Assembly (NCBI GenBank): GCA_018398765.1
Contig: JAHBMJ010000834.1
Location: forward strand, 1 to 22,287
Origin: Chromera velia
Taxonomy: Eukaryota > Sar > Chromeraceae
Length of the DNA: 22,287 nucleotides
Direction: 5' to 3'
Under the pieces are notes generated by a model that made no database searches, was not told the DNA's origin, and was given only the letters and a program-made list of their open reading frames with translations. A program made the translations under genes and the position numbers. Of the stretch, positions 300 through 22,110 are shown one piece after another; the stretch's first letter is position 1, and every line of letters begins with the position of its first letter.

Positions 300-391
300 A
301 GCGAGAGTCGAAGCAGCGAGCCGCGGCTGCGTTGGAGGAGGCTGCGAAGAAAATTGAGAGCCTTCAATCGACCCTCAACGAAAGAGACCAA
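300..391 (+). CDS. Exon 1 in window: coiled coil
   Basis: This exon lies between a CTGCAG acceptor and a GTGGGT donor. Its first two bases complete a split codon, then 30 codons stay open with Ala, Glu, Lys and Gln in a heptad-like pattern ([15 protein letters not shown]). The following intron, 392-791, shows nothing recognisable. Confidence 0.75.
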
Positions 392-3300
392 GTGGGTCAG
401 AGGGAAAAGAAAAGAAATTAGTGAAAGGATGGCATGAGGAAGCCTCTCACGAAAGGATTGAAAGGAAACCTGCATCACGGCTCTGGGCCGTCGAACCTCT
501 GATTGTTTTGTTTGTATTGTTTTCTTTTTGTCTGTTCTGATCGATTCGAGAGAGCCCTTTCTCTCTGTGTATGCACTACGGACACAAAAAAGGGTTTCAT
601 CAGCGCAAGCCGTGTCATGTGGAGGGTCGTCTCATCCATCGAAGGATGGATGGACAGGATCGACCTTGTTTGCGAAAGCAATAGAGGACAATGCAAACCC
701 ATACCTCCTCTTCTTCTACCCAATTGTCTCGCAGAAGAAAGGGAACAAAGGGATCATAATTCGCTGTCTGTCTGCATGTATCTGTCTACAGGCTCTTGAA
801 GAAGCGGAGAGGAATTTGAGAGCTCGGGAGGAGGAAGAGGCAAGACGAGAGGCTGCCAAAATTGTCAGACAAGTCAGTGCTCAGCCTGCCGGCACTGAAG
901 ACCTATTTTCAGTGATTGCTTGCTTGCTTGACCGATTGCTTGCTTCCTTGCTTGCTTGCTTGCTTGATTGATTGATTGATTGATTGATTGGTCATATAGT
1001 CAACCATCCACCCATCCGTCCAATGAGTGGGTGAGTGTCTGGGGCAGCGAGCAAGTTAGTGAGTGAGACAAGTGGGTAGATGGATGGATGGATGAATGGA
1101 TGGATGGATGGGTAGATGGGTGGGTGGATGGGTGGGTGGGTGGATGGGTTGATGGGTGGATGGATGGATGGATGGATGGATGGATGGGTGGGTGGATCGT
1201 TGGATGAATGGGTGGATGGGTGGGTGGACGAGGAGAAGGTCTCTGCGGACGCGAACTGAGAAGTAGCTGTTGGAAACGCTTTTCTTTGGATTTTTCCTGT
1301 CTCGCGCTTCACTTGTCCTCGAGGATCTTTCCGTTTCTTTGCAAAACCCACAGTGACGCTACACCTCTCCGCTCTCTCCCCCCAGGTCTCAAGGTCTGCG
1401 CTCCTTTCTGCCGAAGGAGAGGGAGAGAGAGACGTCAGTGGAGAGCGTCAGTCAGAGGGAAGCCGCGACGGCGAAGAGGAAGAGGTTGTGGTGATTACCC
1501 AAGCGGCGCCAGAGGAAAATACCGGTGGGTGGGTGAATTGGGAGCTTCAAGCCTTTAGAAAGGAAAGTGGGGTCATGGATGGGGAAACAATTTTGATGAA
1601 GAGGGCAAATCAAGACAGTCGATGGAAATTTTGTTTGTGTTTTTTTGTCTCCTTCCACTTATTTTTCTTTTCTTCTTCTTCTTCTTCTTCTTCTTCTTTT
1701 CCTTGTATGAAATTCCTGTGCTTTTTTATGTCTTCTTTTTTTGCCGTTTATGTTTTTTTTGTGTTTCTATACTGGACGCATGACTCTTCTCTTTTTTCCT
1801 TCATTCAACTTTTTAAAACGTCTTAGTATACCTCCACTTTTGTTCCTGCTCCTTCTCTAGATCTTTTCTCGTCACCACAATGACTAGAACTCTGATAGAA
1901 AGACAGAGGGGGATCCTTCTGCATTTCGTTTGCTTGACTCGAGATGCACGTGAAATGCAATTCGTTGCAGGTCTAGCCGACGAGGGGGTGGAAGAGGAGG
2001 TGACTGAACAAAAGGAAATGACCGAAGAGGAAGAGGAATTCGAAGAGGAAGAAGAGTGCCAGTGGGAAGACTGGCCTGCGCCTGGTTCCGTCTCCCTTCC
2101 TTCTGTCTCAACGGAAATGTACCAGCCTCTTCACAATCTGGTTATGTCAGGATCGGTAAGCACATCCCTTCTGCCTCTTGCATATTGGTGGTACGCGCTC
2201 TCCTGTTTTTCCTACTCAAAGCTGAGGAACGATAAGGAAACGGATAGAGAAAGCCCTAGCAGAGAGAGAAAAGTAAAACGGAGAGTATCTATCTCGAGAA
2301 TAAAAGGAATGCAGGCAGCGAGTGGGGAGGCGGAGTGGCGGTCGGAAGAGCAAAACATTCAGAAAAAAGCAAAAGTGAGAAGGGGGAACGTCGCGATGGT
2401 TCAAGGGGGGTGGAAAAAGAAGAAGGAGGAAGAAACGTGGACGGCAAACGAGATATTTGGGCAAAATGAAGCAGATAAGAGAAAGCGAACTGACCAAATG
2501 TACACCTGTCTGTGCGTGTATGTATGACAAGTAGGTGGGACGAATACATTACAGAAGTGAGTGAGTGACTGACTACCTGCAGGTCCGTCTGCTCCTCCCA
2601 GCTTGGTGGAAGGAAGCCATCCGGCCCCAAGCCCTGGAACCCCCCTTATTGTCAGTCAGTCACTCACTCACTCACTCACTCACTCACTCAGTCAGTCAGT
2701 GAGTCGATCAGTCACTGAGCCAGTCGGTCGGTCCGTCACTGAGTCACTGAGTCAGTCGGTTACACAGTCAGTCGGTCGGTCAGTCAGTCACTGAGTCAGT
2801 CGGTCAGCCAGCCAGCCAGCCAGTCAGTTGGTTGACACCGAAAGGGCAGGCAGATATCTACCTTTTCTTTTTTGTTTGTTTCAAGGCGATTGTGGAGAAG
2901 ACTCCATCATACAGACCACAACGTACAGAGTGCTGACGATTTGGGTGAAAGGAAATTCACATGAATGAAGAAGAAAAGGAGATAAAAAAGAGAAAAGGGT
3001 GCTGCCGAAGCACGGATAAAGAAAAGTTCCCCCCCTTATCTCCCTCTCCGATCGAATGTTTGCGTGTCTACGATGCCCTTGCGCGCGCGTCAAACAATTT
3101 CTGCTTAATCGACCCAATTATTACCGTCGTTCATTGGGTTCCCTTCTGCATGAGCGTGCAATAAAATGAAGTCGATGTTCTCGTCATGAAATACTGCAGA
3201 TCAATTCTCTGTGAGGAAGCCGAGGGCTCTTCCGACAGCCGGGCAAAGGCTTTCTTCTCCCCTTCCTCCGACGCTTCCGTCTTGTCGGAGGAGAATGTTG

Positions 3301-6300
3301 GCGATCGAGTCTTAATCGTTCCCTGGAGCGACAGAGACACATTCAGGACCCTCTTGATGAAGGCGGAGGACGACCAACTCGTTCTTTGGCCCCCTATTTC
3401 TTACACCTGTCTGGCACCCCTGGCACGTAGAGGCCTCCTTTCTGCAGGGAAAGTTCCGATCCAGGCGATGATTCCCGAGGAGGGTTCTTTTGAGGACTTA
3501 ACGGTGCCTGATGAGATTGTGAAACTTTTCCAACAGGAGGAGAAGGGGGCAGGGGGGGGTGAAGTGAAAGTGTTGTCACAGGCGGGGTTCCTCGCCATTT
3601 GCCGTCAGTGGGAGAGCACGGCGGGCGACTACTCTGGGTGGAAGGGCCTCTCGCGAGATACGGCAAGAGAAAAAGAGACGGCGGGTCATCAGAGTGTGTT
3701 CTTGCCTGTGAACGAGGAAGTCGGGCCTCGTTTCTTCCTGAAAAAGAAGGGGGGGTATAGAATGGGAGCCACTCGGAGAATTGTGGTGTTCGCCCCAGAT
3801 TGCTTTGATGCTCCTGGGGGAGGAACCGAGATAGAGCAGATTGTGGAAGGACTACAGGAAAGTGATGGCATCCTCTGGCCTCCTGTGTGTGCAAGGGAAT
3901 GGGTCTCAGTCACTCAGGAAATTCGAGAGTGGGAGAAAGCACCGCATCAGGGTGTCTTTGCTGGAGGGGGCGCGATGACGGGATTTGACGGACGTGAGGA
4001 TGTGAGTGAGTCGTTTTATTCTCCTCTCCTCTCCGGGTGTGTCTTTTCACGTGTCTCACTTTTCATTTTGCTCGCTATTTTTTTTTCTCAACCCATCCGT
4101 CGAAGAGTCATGCAGTCCTTTCTTTGAATTGCTGATTTGCTTGTGCTCCTTTTCAGTTTCCCTTTTGTTTCCTCCTGTGCTCACTGAAAATGAAACACAG
4201 CGACACCCTTTGACAAGAGGCGGTTCTAGGATTTGTGATGAAAGAAAAACTCCTAAGGCAAATAATACGAACCGGAACAGTGGCTTCGAGGATTAATTCT
4301 GTCCGTGAGCTTGCGAATGAATCATTGGAACCAGACTTGCATGCTAGAGGGACTTGAACATTCGATACTTCCTTGTGATTCTCTCTCGTGCACTGTCTCT
4401 CCCTCACGCAATGAATGGATGGATGGATGGATGGATGCAGGACATCGCCCTAACGAGCCGGGAGGCCCTCGTGAAGGTCGCCACTCGTGAACATGCGGCG
4501 GGTCGGATGTCTCTGGTCAGCTGCTGCTGCTGCCAAAATTTTAAATGGACATCCAGTTGCCCTGTGCTCATCCGGTCTTCTGCATGCATGTGGGGCGGCA
4601 CAGGGGTGAGGGAAGACGCTCGAGAGGACAGGACAGGACGGATGCAATGCATGCAAGACGGATCGACAGAACAACTGCATATGATGAAAGAAAGGAAGAT
4701 GCAATGAAATCGAGAGAGAAACGGCATGGCCTGGCAGAGAGAGGCTGCATGCATTTCCGTCGAGCGAAAGGTTTGTTGATGCTTGCGTGTCTGCATGAGA
4801 CAGCGTCAAGCTGACAAATTTGACGACTCTATTGAGCTTCGTGCCGCGATCATACCCTTGGTCTTAAGTGCTCAATTATCTTATTTGAATCTTTGATCCT
4901 CTTTTTCGTTCTTGCTCAATTGCCGTTCAGGTCAAAGTCGATTGGCTGCTTGACTACGCAAAAGAGCGAGAGGCAAGCAAAGCGTCCGGCAGGTGAGCGA
5001 GAGTCACAGTGTGTGGGGCTTTTCTTTCGTTCAACAAGACTGCTTTGCTACATTCTCTGCATTCTTGTCTGACGTGCCTCTTCATTTCTTCGTCCGTCCT
5101 TTTGCGCCTGGATACTGTGGCAACAGACGCTCAAGACCGTCTTGTTTAGTGGTCTGTGAAGATGCAGGGGGACCACACGAGTTGCTGCGTGATGGTGTGA
5201 CATGACGTGTCCTCGTACGATATGACGACACTCTCTCCCCATGCACAAGATCGCATGATGTATGTAATTCATAGCCTCACATCTATCTGATCACATGGAA
5301 TGGAAAGGCCCATCACATGCACCCTGACTGAAATGACGCATGCAACACGGCATCATGATCATGCATGCACCCACGCAGACCACCGTACGTGTACATGAAT
5401 GACTGCAGGTTCGTGGAGCCCCCCCCCCGACGCCAGCAGCTGCCTCTGGACGCCTTCGCGTCCTCTCCGAAAGAAGCGTCGAAGATTTTCTGCGTCTCCG
5501 CGAGGTGGAGGTCCCGCCACCATCCGGACCCAGATGGCAGAATTGTGCGCAGTCTTGGAAAGTTCTTCGAGGATTCCCACCACTTTGGCTCCTTCGCACT
5601 CTTTTGGGACTACTTTTCTCTTCCACAGGTCTGTCAGTCTGTGCTTCCGTGTGCGCATGATGAGCGAAGCATGAGTGAATGCGCGATGGGTGCACACGAG
5701 AATGGTGAAAGAGCGTGTCAGAGCAGAGCCTAGGCTAGGATTGGAAGGCCATGTGAGTGATGCAGGGAGGGGAAGGGAAAGCGGGACGGAGAGAAGAGGA
5801 GAGGGATGCCAGACCTATCTATGCATATGCATGGGAGGGAGGGAGGGAAAGAAAAGAAATGAAGGGCACCGTGTAATTCGCGGCTGAAGGGGGAAAGTGC
5901 CGTCAAAGGCAAAGGGGAGGGGGCTCCTTGATAATTGGTTGCGGAAGCGTTTGTAATGGAAAATAAGCTCCTTCTAGCTTTAGCTCTCTCTCCTTCAACG
6001 ACCCCTGTCTGTCCTCATTTCTTGTTCGTCTCCCGAAAGCTTGGAGAGCAGAGGGAGAACGGGACTGCATTCCGCCACCCGATCTTGCAGTGTGCCCAAT
6101 CGTTTGTTTTTTTAAGGAGAGAAAGGTGTATGCCATCCAGGCAAAATTTTATTTTCGATTCATTTCGTCCGATCATCTTTCATTTAAACAATGATCAGGG
6201 GCACTCAGTGAGTTGTGCATTCAACATAACCCCTACTCATTTCGTCCGTCCGTCCTTCCCTCTTTGTTTCTGCAGGAGCCTCGCACAATCAGTGAGGAAG

Positions 6301-8573
6301 GTCGCTATCGTCGGGCCCTGCAGTCTCTGGACCTATTTTACTCCTCCGAGCACTCTGAGGTTCTGAGAGTCAACTTTCACACAGAGGGAATGGGCGCTTC
6401 TTCTTCCTCCTCACCCTCTTCTGTAGAGGCAGAAGACGCCAGCAGAGCGTGGCTGTTCATGGAGAGGCGACTGCTCGGGTGGTCGCCGGGGAAGAGCACA
6501 GTCGTGATCGATGCCGACGGGGTGGAGGACGAGAAGGAAGAAAAAGCCCAAAAGCTCATCATGCCTTGCGGGCCTTTTACCTTCAAGAAGAGTGTCGATG
6601 AAGGAGGACATGAGGTGTCCCTCCCGGGGGATCGTGAGGTGGTCAAATCAATCTTTTTTAGACACCTCACGAGAGTCGCCAGAGAGCCCCACGGGCACGG
6701 GTTGGCGTACTTTGATTCGCCGAGCTTCACAGATGAGAACGCGAAAGAAGTCGCGAAGTTCGTGAAAGAAATGAGCGAGGATCCGTCAACGGGCAGAGTA
6801 TATAAACTCAGGCAGTTGGGGGTGAGTGACTGCCCTCTTGTGACCGACGAAGGCTTTCTGACACTCGTCCGGACAGCAGTCGAGGCTGAGGTTCCGTATG
6901 TGCAATTCAGGTCAGAACAAAGAACTGCATAGGAGTCCTCTTCGTTGTCTAGCTTTGAGCGATCGATAAGCGGACTTGCGGGGATTCAAGCTTCATGAAA
7001 GGATTGAGAAAAATAATGCAAAGTTTCTTTCGGACCCAAGATTGCGATACTTGATGTGATCGGGAATTCATTTACTCACTTTCTAGAAGTCCTTCGGGTC
7101 TCGTGAGTGAGTGTCTCCCCCTTTTACACATTTCTCTTTCCATCTCTGACACCGTCTTTTGGTTTGCCTCGAGTGGTCTGGCAAGGGAACCCAGAGGCAC
7201 ACACTTGTCCTCCCTCCCTCTTATGGCTTGCAGATACATTGACGAGATCACCGACGGGGCCGTGAAGGAAGCTGTCTCCTTATTTCTCTCCGCCCCACAG
7301 CCACCGAAGAAACTCGCCCTCAGAGGGTGCATTGGCGTGACGGACGAGTCCGTGATCCCCCTGAAGGAACTGCTTGACAAAATGCAGGAGGTGTGGGGAG
7401 AGCGGGCAGACATAGACGCGGAGGACACCGGCATCTCTGATGACATCGTCGAGCTCGTTTCGCCGCGAGGTCAGCTCAGATCGAGTCTCAGGAGCCCTCC
7501 CGGGGGGTAACTAGGTCAAGGAAGGCAGGAAGGAAGGAAGGAAGAAAGAAAGGAAGAAAGGAAGAAAGGAAGAAAGGAAGAAAGGAAGAAAGGAAGGAAG
7601 GAAGGAAGGAAGGAGTGAGATCATCTGATTTAATTACGAGGGAGAGACAATCAGATGATCATTCGAATAGGCCTGCAGGTGAAAATGCTGCATGCATGCA
7701 GACGGTGCACGCACGCACGTTTTCCGAATTCCTTCCGAGATCTACTGCATGACATGGAAGCAAGGAAAAAGACAGAATGTGAGGCCGGGTAGTTGATGAA
7801 TGCGCACAGGCCTGTTTGTAGAGATTTAAAAAAACGCACAAGCCTGTCGAACGTGTAGGTCATTTTGTGCTTGCAGAATGGTAGGAGTGCAAACAGTCAA
7901 AAGAAGAAATGTCTCTTTCTCTCTTCCATTGGCTGCCGCGAAATCTCTCGATCTCTTTTATACCTTGTGCAGCAACGACGAAACTCGGATTGACTGATCC
8001 AGATCTCTCCGGTAGCATCCGTCTGGGTATCTCTCTGCACCAGCTCAGCGGGACCCGCACGCTTTCGAACCTCTCCGGAGGGTCACCCCTTCAGAGAGGG
8101 ACCACGAACGTCTCCACTGGAAATTCTCAAACAGCCAACAGATTGGGACAGGTGCGGGAGGAGGAAGAAGAAGGAGAGGGAAGGAATGTCGATACATCAG
8201 ACAGAAGAAGCAGCGGGGCCTTATCTGCGTGATCGATTGCTGAATGAATGAGTACTCAGCAGGACCCTTGGCTACATTCAGACTTTATTAACGATTCTCA
8301 AGTCCGTGCAATCGCGTCAATTCACCTTCTCTCCTTTCTCTCATCAACAGAACTGTGCAGTCTGACAAGAGAGAGACTGCCGCAGAAAGGATCACTACTC
8401 GTTCTTGTCGTCAAAAAAACGTGGGTTGGGTTGTGGCGATTGGGGGTGGCAGGTCTGAATCCATCAATCAATCCAAGCATCAATCGCATGCGCAGGGGCA
8501 GGGTGGGACTGTCAATCTTTGGCTTCCTTCAACCGCGGAAGCGCTTGAGATCGACCCAAATCCGGTTCTCTAA
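300..8573 (+). CDS. Multi-exon gene: coiled coil, BRCT-like middle, TIR/HET-like domain, LRR C terminus (5' partial)
   Basis: Thirteen exons join with matching phases: 300-391, 792-872, 1386-1524, 1971-2155, 2583-2650, 3200-4001, 4441-4515, 4931-4992, 5409-5628, 6276-6910, 7234-7469, 7973-8151 and 8361-8573, about 994 residues counted from the first complete codon. Residues 1-57 are a charged coiled coil and 58-165 an acidic linker. Residues 166-500 contain Trp-bearing segments ([24 protein letters not shown]) that recall BRCT C-terminal helices. Residues 525-635 carry a domain seen in many protist proteins: [21 protein letters not shown] and RAWLFME in order. Residues 750-865 hold cysteine-type LRRs. 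A signalling or immune-receptor-like scaffold is plausible but inferred. The start codon is upstream of the window. Confidence 0.8.
792..872 (+). CDS. Exon 2: charged coiled coil
   Basis: An 81-base exon in phase 0 at both ends, between CTACAG and GTCAGT. It encodes 27 residues continuing the coiled coil ([19 protein letters not shown]). Joining to the previous exon keeps the frame. Confidence 0.75.
916..1228 (+). repeat. (CTTG)n/(ATTG)n followed by (GATG/GGTG)n microsatellites in an intron
   Basis: Intron 873-1385 contains tetranucleotide arrays: CTTG changing to ATTG at about 916-990, and degenerate GGAT/GGTG units at about 1078-1228. Long open frames through these arrays are repeat artefacts rich in Ser-Ile-His-Pro or Gly-Trp. 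Confidence 0.9.
1386..1524 (+). CDS. Exon 3: acidic linker
   Basis: Starts after CCCCAG in phase 0 and ends in phase 1 before GTGGGT. The 46 complete codons are rich in Glu, Ser, Arg and Gly and end [17 protein letters not shown]. It looks disordered. Intron 1525-1970 has a (TTC)n tract at about 1668-1700. Confidence 0.7.
1971..2155 (+). CDS. Exon 4: Glu-rich segment, start of a possible BRCT-like unit
   Basis: Starts after GTTGCAG in phase 1 and ends in phase 0 before GTAAGC. The first two thirds are dominated by Glu; it then becomes neutral and hydrophobic ([13 protein letters not shown]). The split Gly codon joins properly to the preceding exon. Intron 2156-2582 is unremarkable. Confidence 0.7.
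2583..2650 (+). CDS. Exon 5: [16 protein letters not shown] segment
   Basis: Starts after CCTGCAG in phase 0. The donor chosen is GTCAGT at 2651, leaving phase 2, which matches the acceptor at 3199; the identical repeat unit 4 bases downstream would leave phase 0 and break the frame. The short hydrophobic-Trp-basic stretch resembles the last helix of a BRCT domain. Confidence 0.6.
2651..2824 (+). repeat. (TCAG)n/(TCAC)n/(TCGG)n array starting at the donor site
   Basis: A degenerate tetranucleotide array (TCAG, TCAC, TCGG, CCAG variants) occupies the first third of intron 2651-3199. The GTCAGT donor is made from the first repeat unit, so several equivalent donor sequences lie side by side. 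Confidence 0.85.
3200..4001 (+). CDS. Exon 6: large central exon, possible degenerate BRCT-like repeats
   Basis: An 802-base exon from ACTGCAG (phase 2) to GTGAGT (phase 0). It encodes 267 complete codons with no low-complexity bias except a short Gly run. Two segments share an LWPP motif after a hydrophobic strand and a helix ([15 protein letters not shown] and [15 protein letters not shown]), suggesting an internal repeat. The second continues into a Trp-containing helix. BRCT similarity is only suggestive. Intron 4002-4440 ends in an (ATGG)n tract. Confidence 0.8.
4441..4515 (+). CDS. Exon 7
   Basis: A 75-base exon, phase 0 at both ends, between GATGCAG and GTCAGC. It gives 25 residues ending HAAGRMSL, which run directly into [12 protein letters not shown] of the next exon. 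The joined pattern, helix then strand then Trp helix, is what suggests a BRCT end. The next intron is 4516-4930. Confidence 0.7.
4931..4992 (+). CDS. Exon 8: [14 protein letters not shown]
   Basis: Starts after GTTCAG in phase 0 and ends in phase 2 before GTGAGC. A typical BRCT signature has a hydrophobic pair, a polar residue and then W-hydrophobic near the final helix, as seen here. Intron 4993-5408 holds no recognisable feature. Confidence 0.7.
5409..5628 (+). CDS. Exon 9: first half of TIR/HET-like domain
   Basis: Starts after ACTGCAG completing a split Arg codon and ends in phase 0 before GTCTGT. After a Pro-rich linker it encodes IFCVSARW, then HHPDPDG, a helix ([11 protein letters not shown]) and finally FWDYFSLPQ. 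These three blocks in this order and spacing are the hallmark of a widespread protist family usually written as SHRW, HPDPxG and DYxxxPQ. It may share the TIR/HET fold; that is inference. Confidence 0.85.
6276..6910 (+). CDS. Exon 10: second half of TIR/HET-like domain and first LRR
   Basis: Starts after TTCTGCAG in phase 0 and ends in phase 2 before GTCAGA. It continues directly from the FWDYFSLPQ block with a helix containing [13 protein letters not shown], then EVLRV and, after a Ser-rich insert, [10 protein letters not shown]. The last block corresponds to the RGWxxxE motif of the family. The end of the exon has a cysteine-type LRR ([15 protein letters not shown]). The preceding intron, 5629-6275, is the longest of this gene. 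Confidence 0.85.
7234..7469 (+). CDS. Exon 11: leucine-rich repeat (alternative end at 7510)
   Basis: Starts after CTTGCAG completing an Arg codon. It encodes another LRR of the cysteine-containing type ([17 protein letters not shown]). Two ends are possible: splicing at GTCAGC (7470), which leaves phase 1 and fits the next acceptor at 7971-7972, or reading through to a TAA at 7508-7510. The spliced form is preferred because phase, donor and intron size all fit. Confidence 0.75.
7519..7612 (+). repeat. (AAGG)n/(AAGA)n microsatellite
   Basis: About 95 bases of GGAA and AGAA tetranucleotides. It falls in the intron between exons 11 and 12, or just 3' of the gene if exon 11 is terminal. Confidence 0.9.
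7973..8151 (+). CDS. Exon 12: Ser/Thr/Gly-rich tail (alternative stop at 8232)
   Basis: Starts after TTGTGCAG in phase 1, in frame with the spliced form of exon 11. It encodes a Leu/Ser/Thr/Gly-rich tail ([11 protein letters not shown]). It either splices at GTGCGG (8152) to the next exon or reads on through an acidic stretch to a TGA at 8230-8232. Both keep the frame. Confidence 0.5.
8361..8573 (+). CDS. Exon 13: candidate terminal exon
   Basis: In phase 0 after TGTGCAG; stop TAA at 8571-8573. The first part is Ser/Gln/His-rich, partly from a CAAT-like repeat; the end ([17 protein letters not shown]) looks like real protein. The intron before it (209 bases) is shorter than the gene's others, so this exon is the least certain. 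Confidence 0.4.
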   Translation, partial: SDKRETAAERITTRSCRQKNVGWVVAIGGGRSESINQSKHQSHAQGQGGTVNLWLPSTAEALEIDPNPVL

Positions 8574-9198: not shown

Positions 9199-9206
9199 AG
9201 AGTAGC

Positions 9207-9456
9207 CAGGGTTGCGATCGCTACCGGTAATGACCCTTCGCTGCCGGCAATTGCCAGTCTGCCGGCAATGGACATTTCTGACTTAGTCACTACCGAAAAA
9301 AAAATGATAAAAAAAGACCTACAGATTTTATCATTGAACTCTAACTTTCTCTGCCATCGACTGCCAGTCACTCTGCCGGTGGCGAGAAGCTCTGCCGGCA
9401 ATTACCGTCCTGCTGGCAATCGCTCTTCTCTACCACCGGAAAAAAAAACAACCCTG
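9207..9456. mobile_element. Non-autonomous hAT-like element (MITE) with 8-bp target duplication
   Basis: The 250-bp unit starts CAGGGTTG and ends CAACCCTG, its exact inverse complement. It is flanked on both sides by the identical 8-bp sequence AGAGTAGC (9199-9206 and 9457-9464). An 8-bp duplication with termini starting CAGGG is the signature of hAT transposons. Subterminal CTGCCGGCAA-like motifs recur several times in both orientations. No transposase is encoded. Confidence 0.85.

Positions 9457-18919: not shown

Positions 18920-22110
<3,191 letters not shown>

Follow-up and report, generated by a model that had tools for sequence, protein, structure and literature searches.

The window analysed here is the whole of contig JAHBMJ010000834.1 of Chromera velia (22,287 nucleotides; C833 in the searched genome of 177.8 Mb in 4040 contigs), and its plus strand carries a gene for a conserved core domain followed by leucine-rich repeats (LRRs). 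In this genome, a search for light-harvesting genes gave 58 matches, some being pieces of exons, and plastid psbA was not found. We consider, at a probability of roughly one in two, that the gene belongs, as a diverged copy, to a large family of algal proteins in which a TIR/HET-superfamily core and cysteine-type LRRs serve repeat-gated defence signalling. The protein contains the conserved domain and the repeats, many related places lie in the genome, and bacterial relatives carry the same motifs. The blocks CVSARW, HPDPDG, FWDYFSLPQ and RAWLFME, assigned to one protein by the original prediction, do lie in the same spliced frame, at residues 529, 539, 566 and 631 of 950.

With the window domain as the query, 53 genome matches were obtained at E ≤ 0.001, two of which are its own exons, and the best of the other 51 has an E value of 2.4e-14. 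The domain of one paralog gave 84 matches, and the two sets merge into at least 69 places including the window, some of them weak or partial; these match counts are lower bounds. The window domain belongs to a homologous core-domain family of the Chromera genome, with similarity far above chance. A profile of the domain matched nothing in the PDB by sequence, and four scans of viral contigs (the last made for the ThsB neighbour), a phage scan and the first scan of a genome-contig collection yielded nothing.

Pfam leaves the domain unnamed in the eight paralog proteins scanned and identifies ankyrin repeats in five and LRR_6 in two, both of the latter under the curated cut-off. A small home-built ankyrin profile, trained on three repeats, detected at least two repeats on the strand of the domain in 31 of the 40 other places read (28 further family places lie outside these 40) and none in the window, in 11 bacterial loci or on the opposite strand. 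The nine places with fewer than two repeats are an upper figure, because C3482 was masked before its domain and the flanks are short. Since ankyrin repeats occur in 31 of the 40 places, the usual order in the family is ankyrin, linker, domain and LRR. Within the contig, the window copy has no ankyrin repeats; any exons that precede the contig start are out of view. The order had been presented as that of an undescribed single protein; the succession of domain and LRR stands, but it is a variant within a large family that mostly carries ankyrin repeats in front.

For the LRRs, a match to FBXL2 (6o60_C) was found with a whole-sequence E value of 8.5e-8, made up of seven short stretches, none of which passes alone. 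The FBXL2 alignments show that the repeats carry the cysteine-type (FBXL) pattern L-x-L-x-x-C-x-x-(I/V)-T-D. The proposal of cysteine-type LRRs after the domain is thereby upheld, though a Pfam scan of the window protein gives no LRR, and the likeness to immune-receptor architecture, a signalling-type domain followed by LRRs, also holds up. The C-terminal part of one paralog gave no LRR match in the PDB by sequence.

The domain also has relatives in bacteria. A weak plasmid match (E = 0.1) led to the cyanobacterial protein WP_126390537, which holds all the motifs, and a profile of this protein aligned with two algal domains was run against a bacterial and archaeal genome collection. Among 53 candidate stretches, ten loci were confirmed, from Calothrix, Nocardia, Saccharopolyspora, Thiothrix, two Catellatospora and metagenome-assembled genomes of Rhodocyclaceae, Pseudomonadota, Schlesneria and a gammaproteobacterium. 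An algal profile made without the bacterial loci recovers all ten, with whole-sequence E values from 2.9e-13 to 1.9e-4 (set of 1000), and its best single stretch is weaker in L081 (0.056), L082 (0.0036) and L083 (0.023). When the algal and bacterial profiles were compared by hhalign, they matched with a probability of 98.8 and an E value of 9.7e-17 over 67 columns. Since the profiles match in this way, algae and bacteria share this domain family, and the bacterial SHRW / WYD..CLPQ / AWC..E proteins (L077-L086, WP_126390537) are direct relatives of the algal domain. In contrast to the algal proteins, they show no ankyrin repeats in the 11 loci and no LRR in the eight proteins scanned with Pfam, in which the domain is again unnamed; weak TPR matches occur in one, and in most relatives an insert separates the first motif from the second.

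The neighbourhoods of four of the 11 bacterial loci were scanned, without a control set. In Calothrix, a ThsB-type TIR gene (PF08937, E = 1.2e-27) is found some 700 bases away from the relative (L077:3801-4289 and 1937-3109). The Pseudanabaena plasmid relative (L075:1093-2232 and neighbours) is flanked by AAA ATPase, VWA (CoxE-like) and TPR genes, a setting that resembles bacterial conflict systems. In Thiothrix, integrase and HipA genes lie nearby (L081:1859-2851), and the integrase frame overlaps the start of the relative by four bases. The gammaproteobacterial relative (L086:1739-2242) adjoins a Gp157-like gene. We take these neighbours to be of defence or mobile type.

The relation of the domain to TIR and HET is suggested by several features. 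The consensus of HET domains comprises S-Y-x-W, W-x-D-x-x-C-x-x-Q and R-x-W-x-x-Q-E, and a W-x-x-x-E spacing is found in plant TIR domains. The alignment columns of the present family contain the blocks S-x-x-W, D(+6)Q and R-x-W-x-x-x-E as candidate counterparts of the HET blocks. The W and E of W-x-x-x-E are invariant in 24 of 24 and 10 of 10 rows, and the window copy keeps S-x-x-W, HPDP, FWD, Q, W and E. Strands and helices alternate in two models of bacterial relatives, and the VIA-align list is headed by TIR chains, the structural matches being weak; no HET structure appears in that list, which carries no weight either way. The first AF2 (AlphaFold2) model was too poor for use; its top Foldseek rows, a nucleoside deoxyribosyltransferase (E = 0.038) and SPARTA (E = 0.043), were not significant.

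The tests with hidden Markov models (HMMs) and profiles lend this relation no support: none against HET or TIR reached significance. The HET model (PF06985) matched none of 24 members at E ≤ 10 and nothing in the Chromera genome, where no control matched either, and a HET search of ten bacterial genomes gave no significant match. Among the 24 members, Pfam returned one stray match (E = 0.1), NCBIfam one (E = 0.24) and PADLOC none, with no TIR match from the STIR clan. With a single ThsB sequence, hhalign placed WYD...RKWVDYE on WYD...RAWCTLE (probability 3.3, E = 0.013); a fuller ThsB alignment lowered this to a probability of 0.5 and an E value of 0.13, and a ThsB-TIR profile against the algal alignment gave E = 0.65. 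Classical TIR_2 has two matches in the Chromera genome, both below the cut-off and on contigs outside the 69 places. The TIR/HET label stands in part: motif spacing against the HET and TIR consensus, the invariant W-x-x-x-E, the models of bacterial relatives and the weak structural matches give the link partial support, but the HMM and profile tests do not. The glutamate of W-x-x-x-E is a candidate equivalent of the functional glutamate of TIR domains.

Most likely, the protein is a repeat-gated effector of TIR/HET type; sensing, gating, use of NAD+ and defence are roles that we infer. The domain would adopt a TIR-like alpha/beta fold, and its invariant W-x-x-x-E glutamate may act on NAD+ or a related nucleotide; alternatively, the domain may nucleate assembly in the fashion of TIR domains. 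The LRRs, joined in most paralogs read by the ankyrin repeats, would detect a ligand or a partner, and detection would release or cluster the domain and so signal defence or cell death. In the window copy the ankyrin part would have been lost or would never have been present, and a separate N-terminal region would take its place.

Duplication and substitution patterns bear on this proposal. Five family copies (C311, C1304, C1286, C222 and C3518) are 93-96% identical in linker and domain DNA and therefore arose by fairly recent duplication. Over one set of six recent duplicate pairs, the ratio of nonsynonymous to synonymous substitution rates (dN/dS) is 0.21-0.28 for linker and domain and 0.54-0.66 for the C-terminal part; across all 14 printed pairs, linker and domain give 0.14-0.34. 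A conserved core with repeats that seem to change faster would be expected if a conserved effector were paired with a changing sensor, though relaxed constraint also explains the difference between the two parts. It is possible, if somewhat doubtful, that the domain is TIR/HET-related but serves ordinary signalling or scaffolding, as in development, stress or organelle control, with the repeats binding fixed partners. The dN/dS values below 1 in both parts are consistent with such a role, a defence function is something we infer, and, according to PMC9153377, some TIR domains lack the glutamate or detectable NAD+ hydrolysis. However, the many places with recent duplicates among them, the faster change of the LRR part than of the domain, and, in the four bacterial loci scanned, the proximity of the relatives to genes of defence or mobile type argue against it.

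A TIR/HET-type domain is of a known kind. Fungal HET proteins (PF06985; HET-E, TOL) resemble the Chromera family in motif order and spacing and in forming lineage-specific gene families, but the Chromera domain does not match the HET HMM. TIR domains of the STIR clan (plant TNLs, SPARTA TIR-APAZ, ThsB) share the alternation of strands and helices seen in the bacterial-relative models and the W-x-x-x-E spacing. The plant TIR-NB-ARC-LRR receptors likewise hold a signalling-type domain and LRRs in one chain and form an expanded family; unlike them, the Chromera proteins have FBXL-like LRRs, in most of the copies read a preceding set of ankyrin repeats, and no NTPase (nucleoside triphosphatase) found, Pfam giving no NB-ARC or NACHT match in the window protein or the eight paralogs. 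PMC4986451 reports HET homologs in stramenopiles, haptophytes, choanoflagellates, green algae and bryophytes, and no candidate nucleotide-binding LRR receptors (NLRs) that contain LRRs in fungi. A 2026 preprint atlas of eukaryotic TIR domains, based on STIR-clan models, describes uncharacterised, highly diverged clades (PMC13142454), which may include the Chromera family. The terms 'leucine-rich', 'ankyrin', 'heterokaryon' and 'BRCT' are all absent from the main text of PMC4501334 by a word search. We found no description in the open-access literature of an expanded algal family that joins ankyrin repeats, a TIR/HET-like domain and LRRs without an NTPase.

A broader and more tentative proposal is that the alga may have several dozen intracellular, NTPase-free receptors, in each of which a HET/TIR-type enzyme domain shared with bacteria is coupled directly to LRRs and usually ankyrin repeats, acting in NLR-like immunity or allorecognition that arose independently of the systems in plants, animals and fungi. 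In that case, the window gene would represent a diverged branch whose N-terminal module is its own. If so, a free-living alga would hold a receptor-like family built from the kind of domain used in fungal allorecognition and TIR immunity, minus the usual NTPase switch. The domain occurs in several bacterial phyla, yet matched no Pfam, NCBIfam or PADLOC model, so that surveys based on these could miss it. The family would also make it possible to study by experiment how single-celled algae recognise invaders or kin and how TIR and HET are related, since its bacterial relatives are compact enough for expression and assay.

The gene model joins 12 plus-strand exons into a single 950-residue frame that ends at a TGA stop. 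The borders, picked by hand, are GT-AG with consistent phases. The exons are as follows.

300..391, plus strand: exon 1, the first seen; charged N terminus, phase 1 start, upstream exons missing
792..872, plus strand: exon 2; charged N terminus
1386..1524, plus strand: exon 3; Glu-rich
1971..2155, plus strand: exon 4; Glu-rich
2583..2650, plus strand: exon 5; short (22 residues), the weakest exon, without homolog support
3200..4001, plus strand: exon 6; region earlier labelled BRCT-like, no other genome place found (from residue 209 on)
4441..4515, plus strand: exon 7
4931..4992, plus strand: exon 8; family linker
5409..5628, plus strand: exon 9; first half of the TIR/HET-like domain
6276..6910, plus strand: exon 10; other half of the domain, with RAWLFME and W-x-x-x-E, and beginning of the LRRs
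7234..7469, plus strand: exon 11; cysteine-type LRRs
7973..8232, plus strand: exon 12; tail and TGA stop

The exon assembly that the original prediction had called for yields one spliced frame within its span of 300..8573, but the model ends at 8232 rather than 8573. The junction 5628|6276 is independently supported, because intronless paralogs read FWDFMSLFQ-KPRDE straight through. Since the contig starts at window base 1, the 5' end of the gene is missing, and the phase 1 opening of the first visible exon places the start beyond the contig.

It is unlikely that the window copy is a decaying one, whether pseudogene or relic, that sits on a long branch and is cut short at its start. In a 34-row tree, its end branch has 6.34 changes per column and its best identity to any row is 30%, with an unsure placement, an unsettled bootstrap and one miscut row (L007). 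This long branch, the missing 5' end and the lack of a relative in the genome for residues 209-500 would suit decay. However, the twelve exons are open, with canonical borders and matching phases, the motif residues from S-x-x-W to the glutamate are retained, and the absent 5' end is a limit of the assembly. Still less probable is the fusion in the model of two neighbouring genes, one charged and of unknown domain (300-4515) and one of TIR/HET-LRR type (4931-8232). The missing paralog for residues 209-500 and the differing N termini of the paralogs read fit such a fusion, but the phases agree across all borders, hand-chosen as these are.

In the N-terminal region, residues 209-500 found no other genome place at E ≤ 1 and a single PDB chain by phmmer (E = 1); apart from weak stray matches, Pfam gives nothing for these residues or for residues 1-208. 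The 280-residue region called BRCT-like matches no Pfam family at E ≤ 10, and the whole protein none at E ≤ 5; BRCT (PF00533) itself had no match by sequence to its Pfam model or to a PDB structure. The stretch WLLDYAKE...PPPRRQQ, which resembles a BRCT end, was aligned by MAFFT onto the family linker LxLLxx...PxRQ. In local alignments with nine paralog regions (300 shuffles each), only L005, whose compared stretch includes the linker, stands out (4 of 300 at or above); the other eight scores were reached by 36 to 232 of 300 shuffles. BRCT identity found no support in Pfam, PDB phmmer, the genome search (residues 209-500) or the shuffled alignments, and a BRCT-containing nuclear protein of DNA-repair type with an extra domain, an idea for which only the impression in the original prediction speaks, is highly improbable, since no Pfam family and just that lone PDB chain match and the BRCT-end-like stretch falls on the linker. 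The coiled-coil N terminus is unproven: residues 1-57 are 47% charged, but their heptad contrast was equalled or exceeded in 450 of 2000 shuffles.

Two further candidates in this region were dropped. A 'W.PVC' stretch common by eye to L028, L071 and the window gained no support from the scores (113 and 87 of 300), and an internal duplication was unsupported, its best match covering six residues (E = 0.033). Elsewhere, C2227:6028-6174 is 88% identical to a piece of the N-terminal region of paralog L028 and was matched without the domain; it is perhaps a partial copy.

Tandem arrays of four-base and TC-rich units occupy introns and spacers of the window (1079-1228, 2651-2828, 7518-7614 and 19361-19483). 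The border of exon 5 is less sure, because its modelled end coincides exactly with the start of a GTCA array. At 9200-9450 of the window, CTGCCGGCAAT-like words recur, resembling by eye a small repeat.

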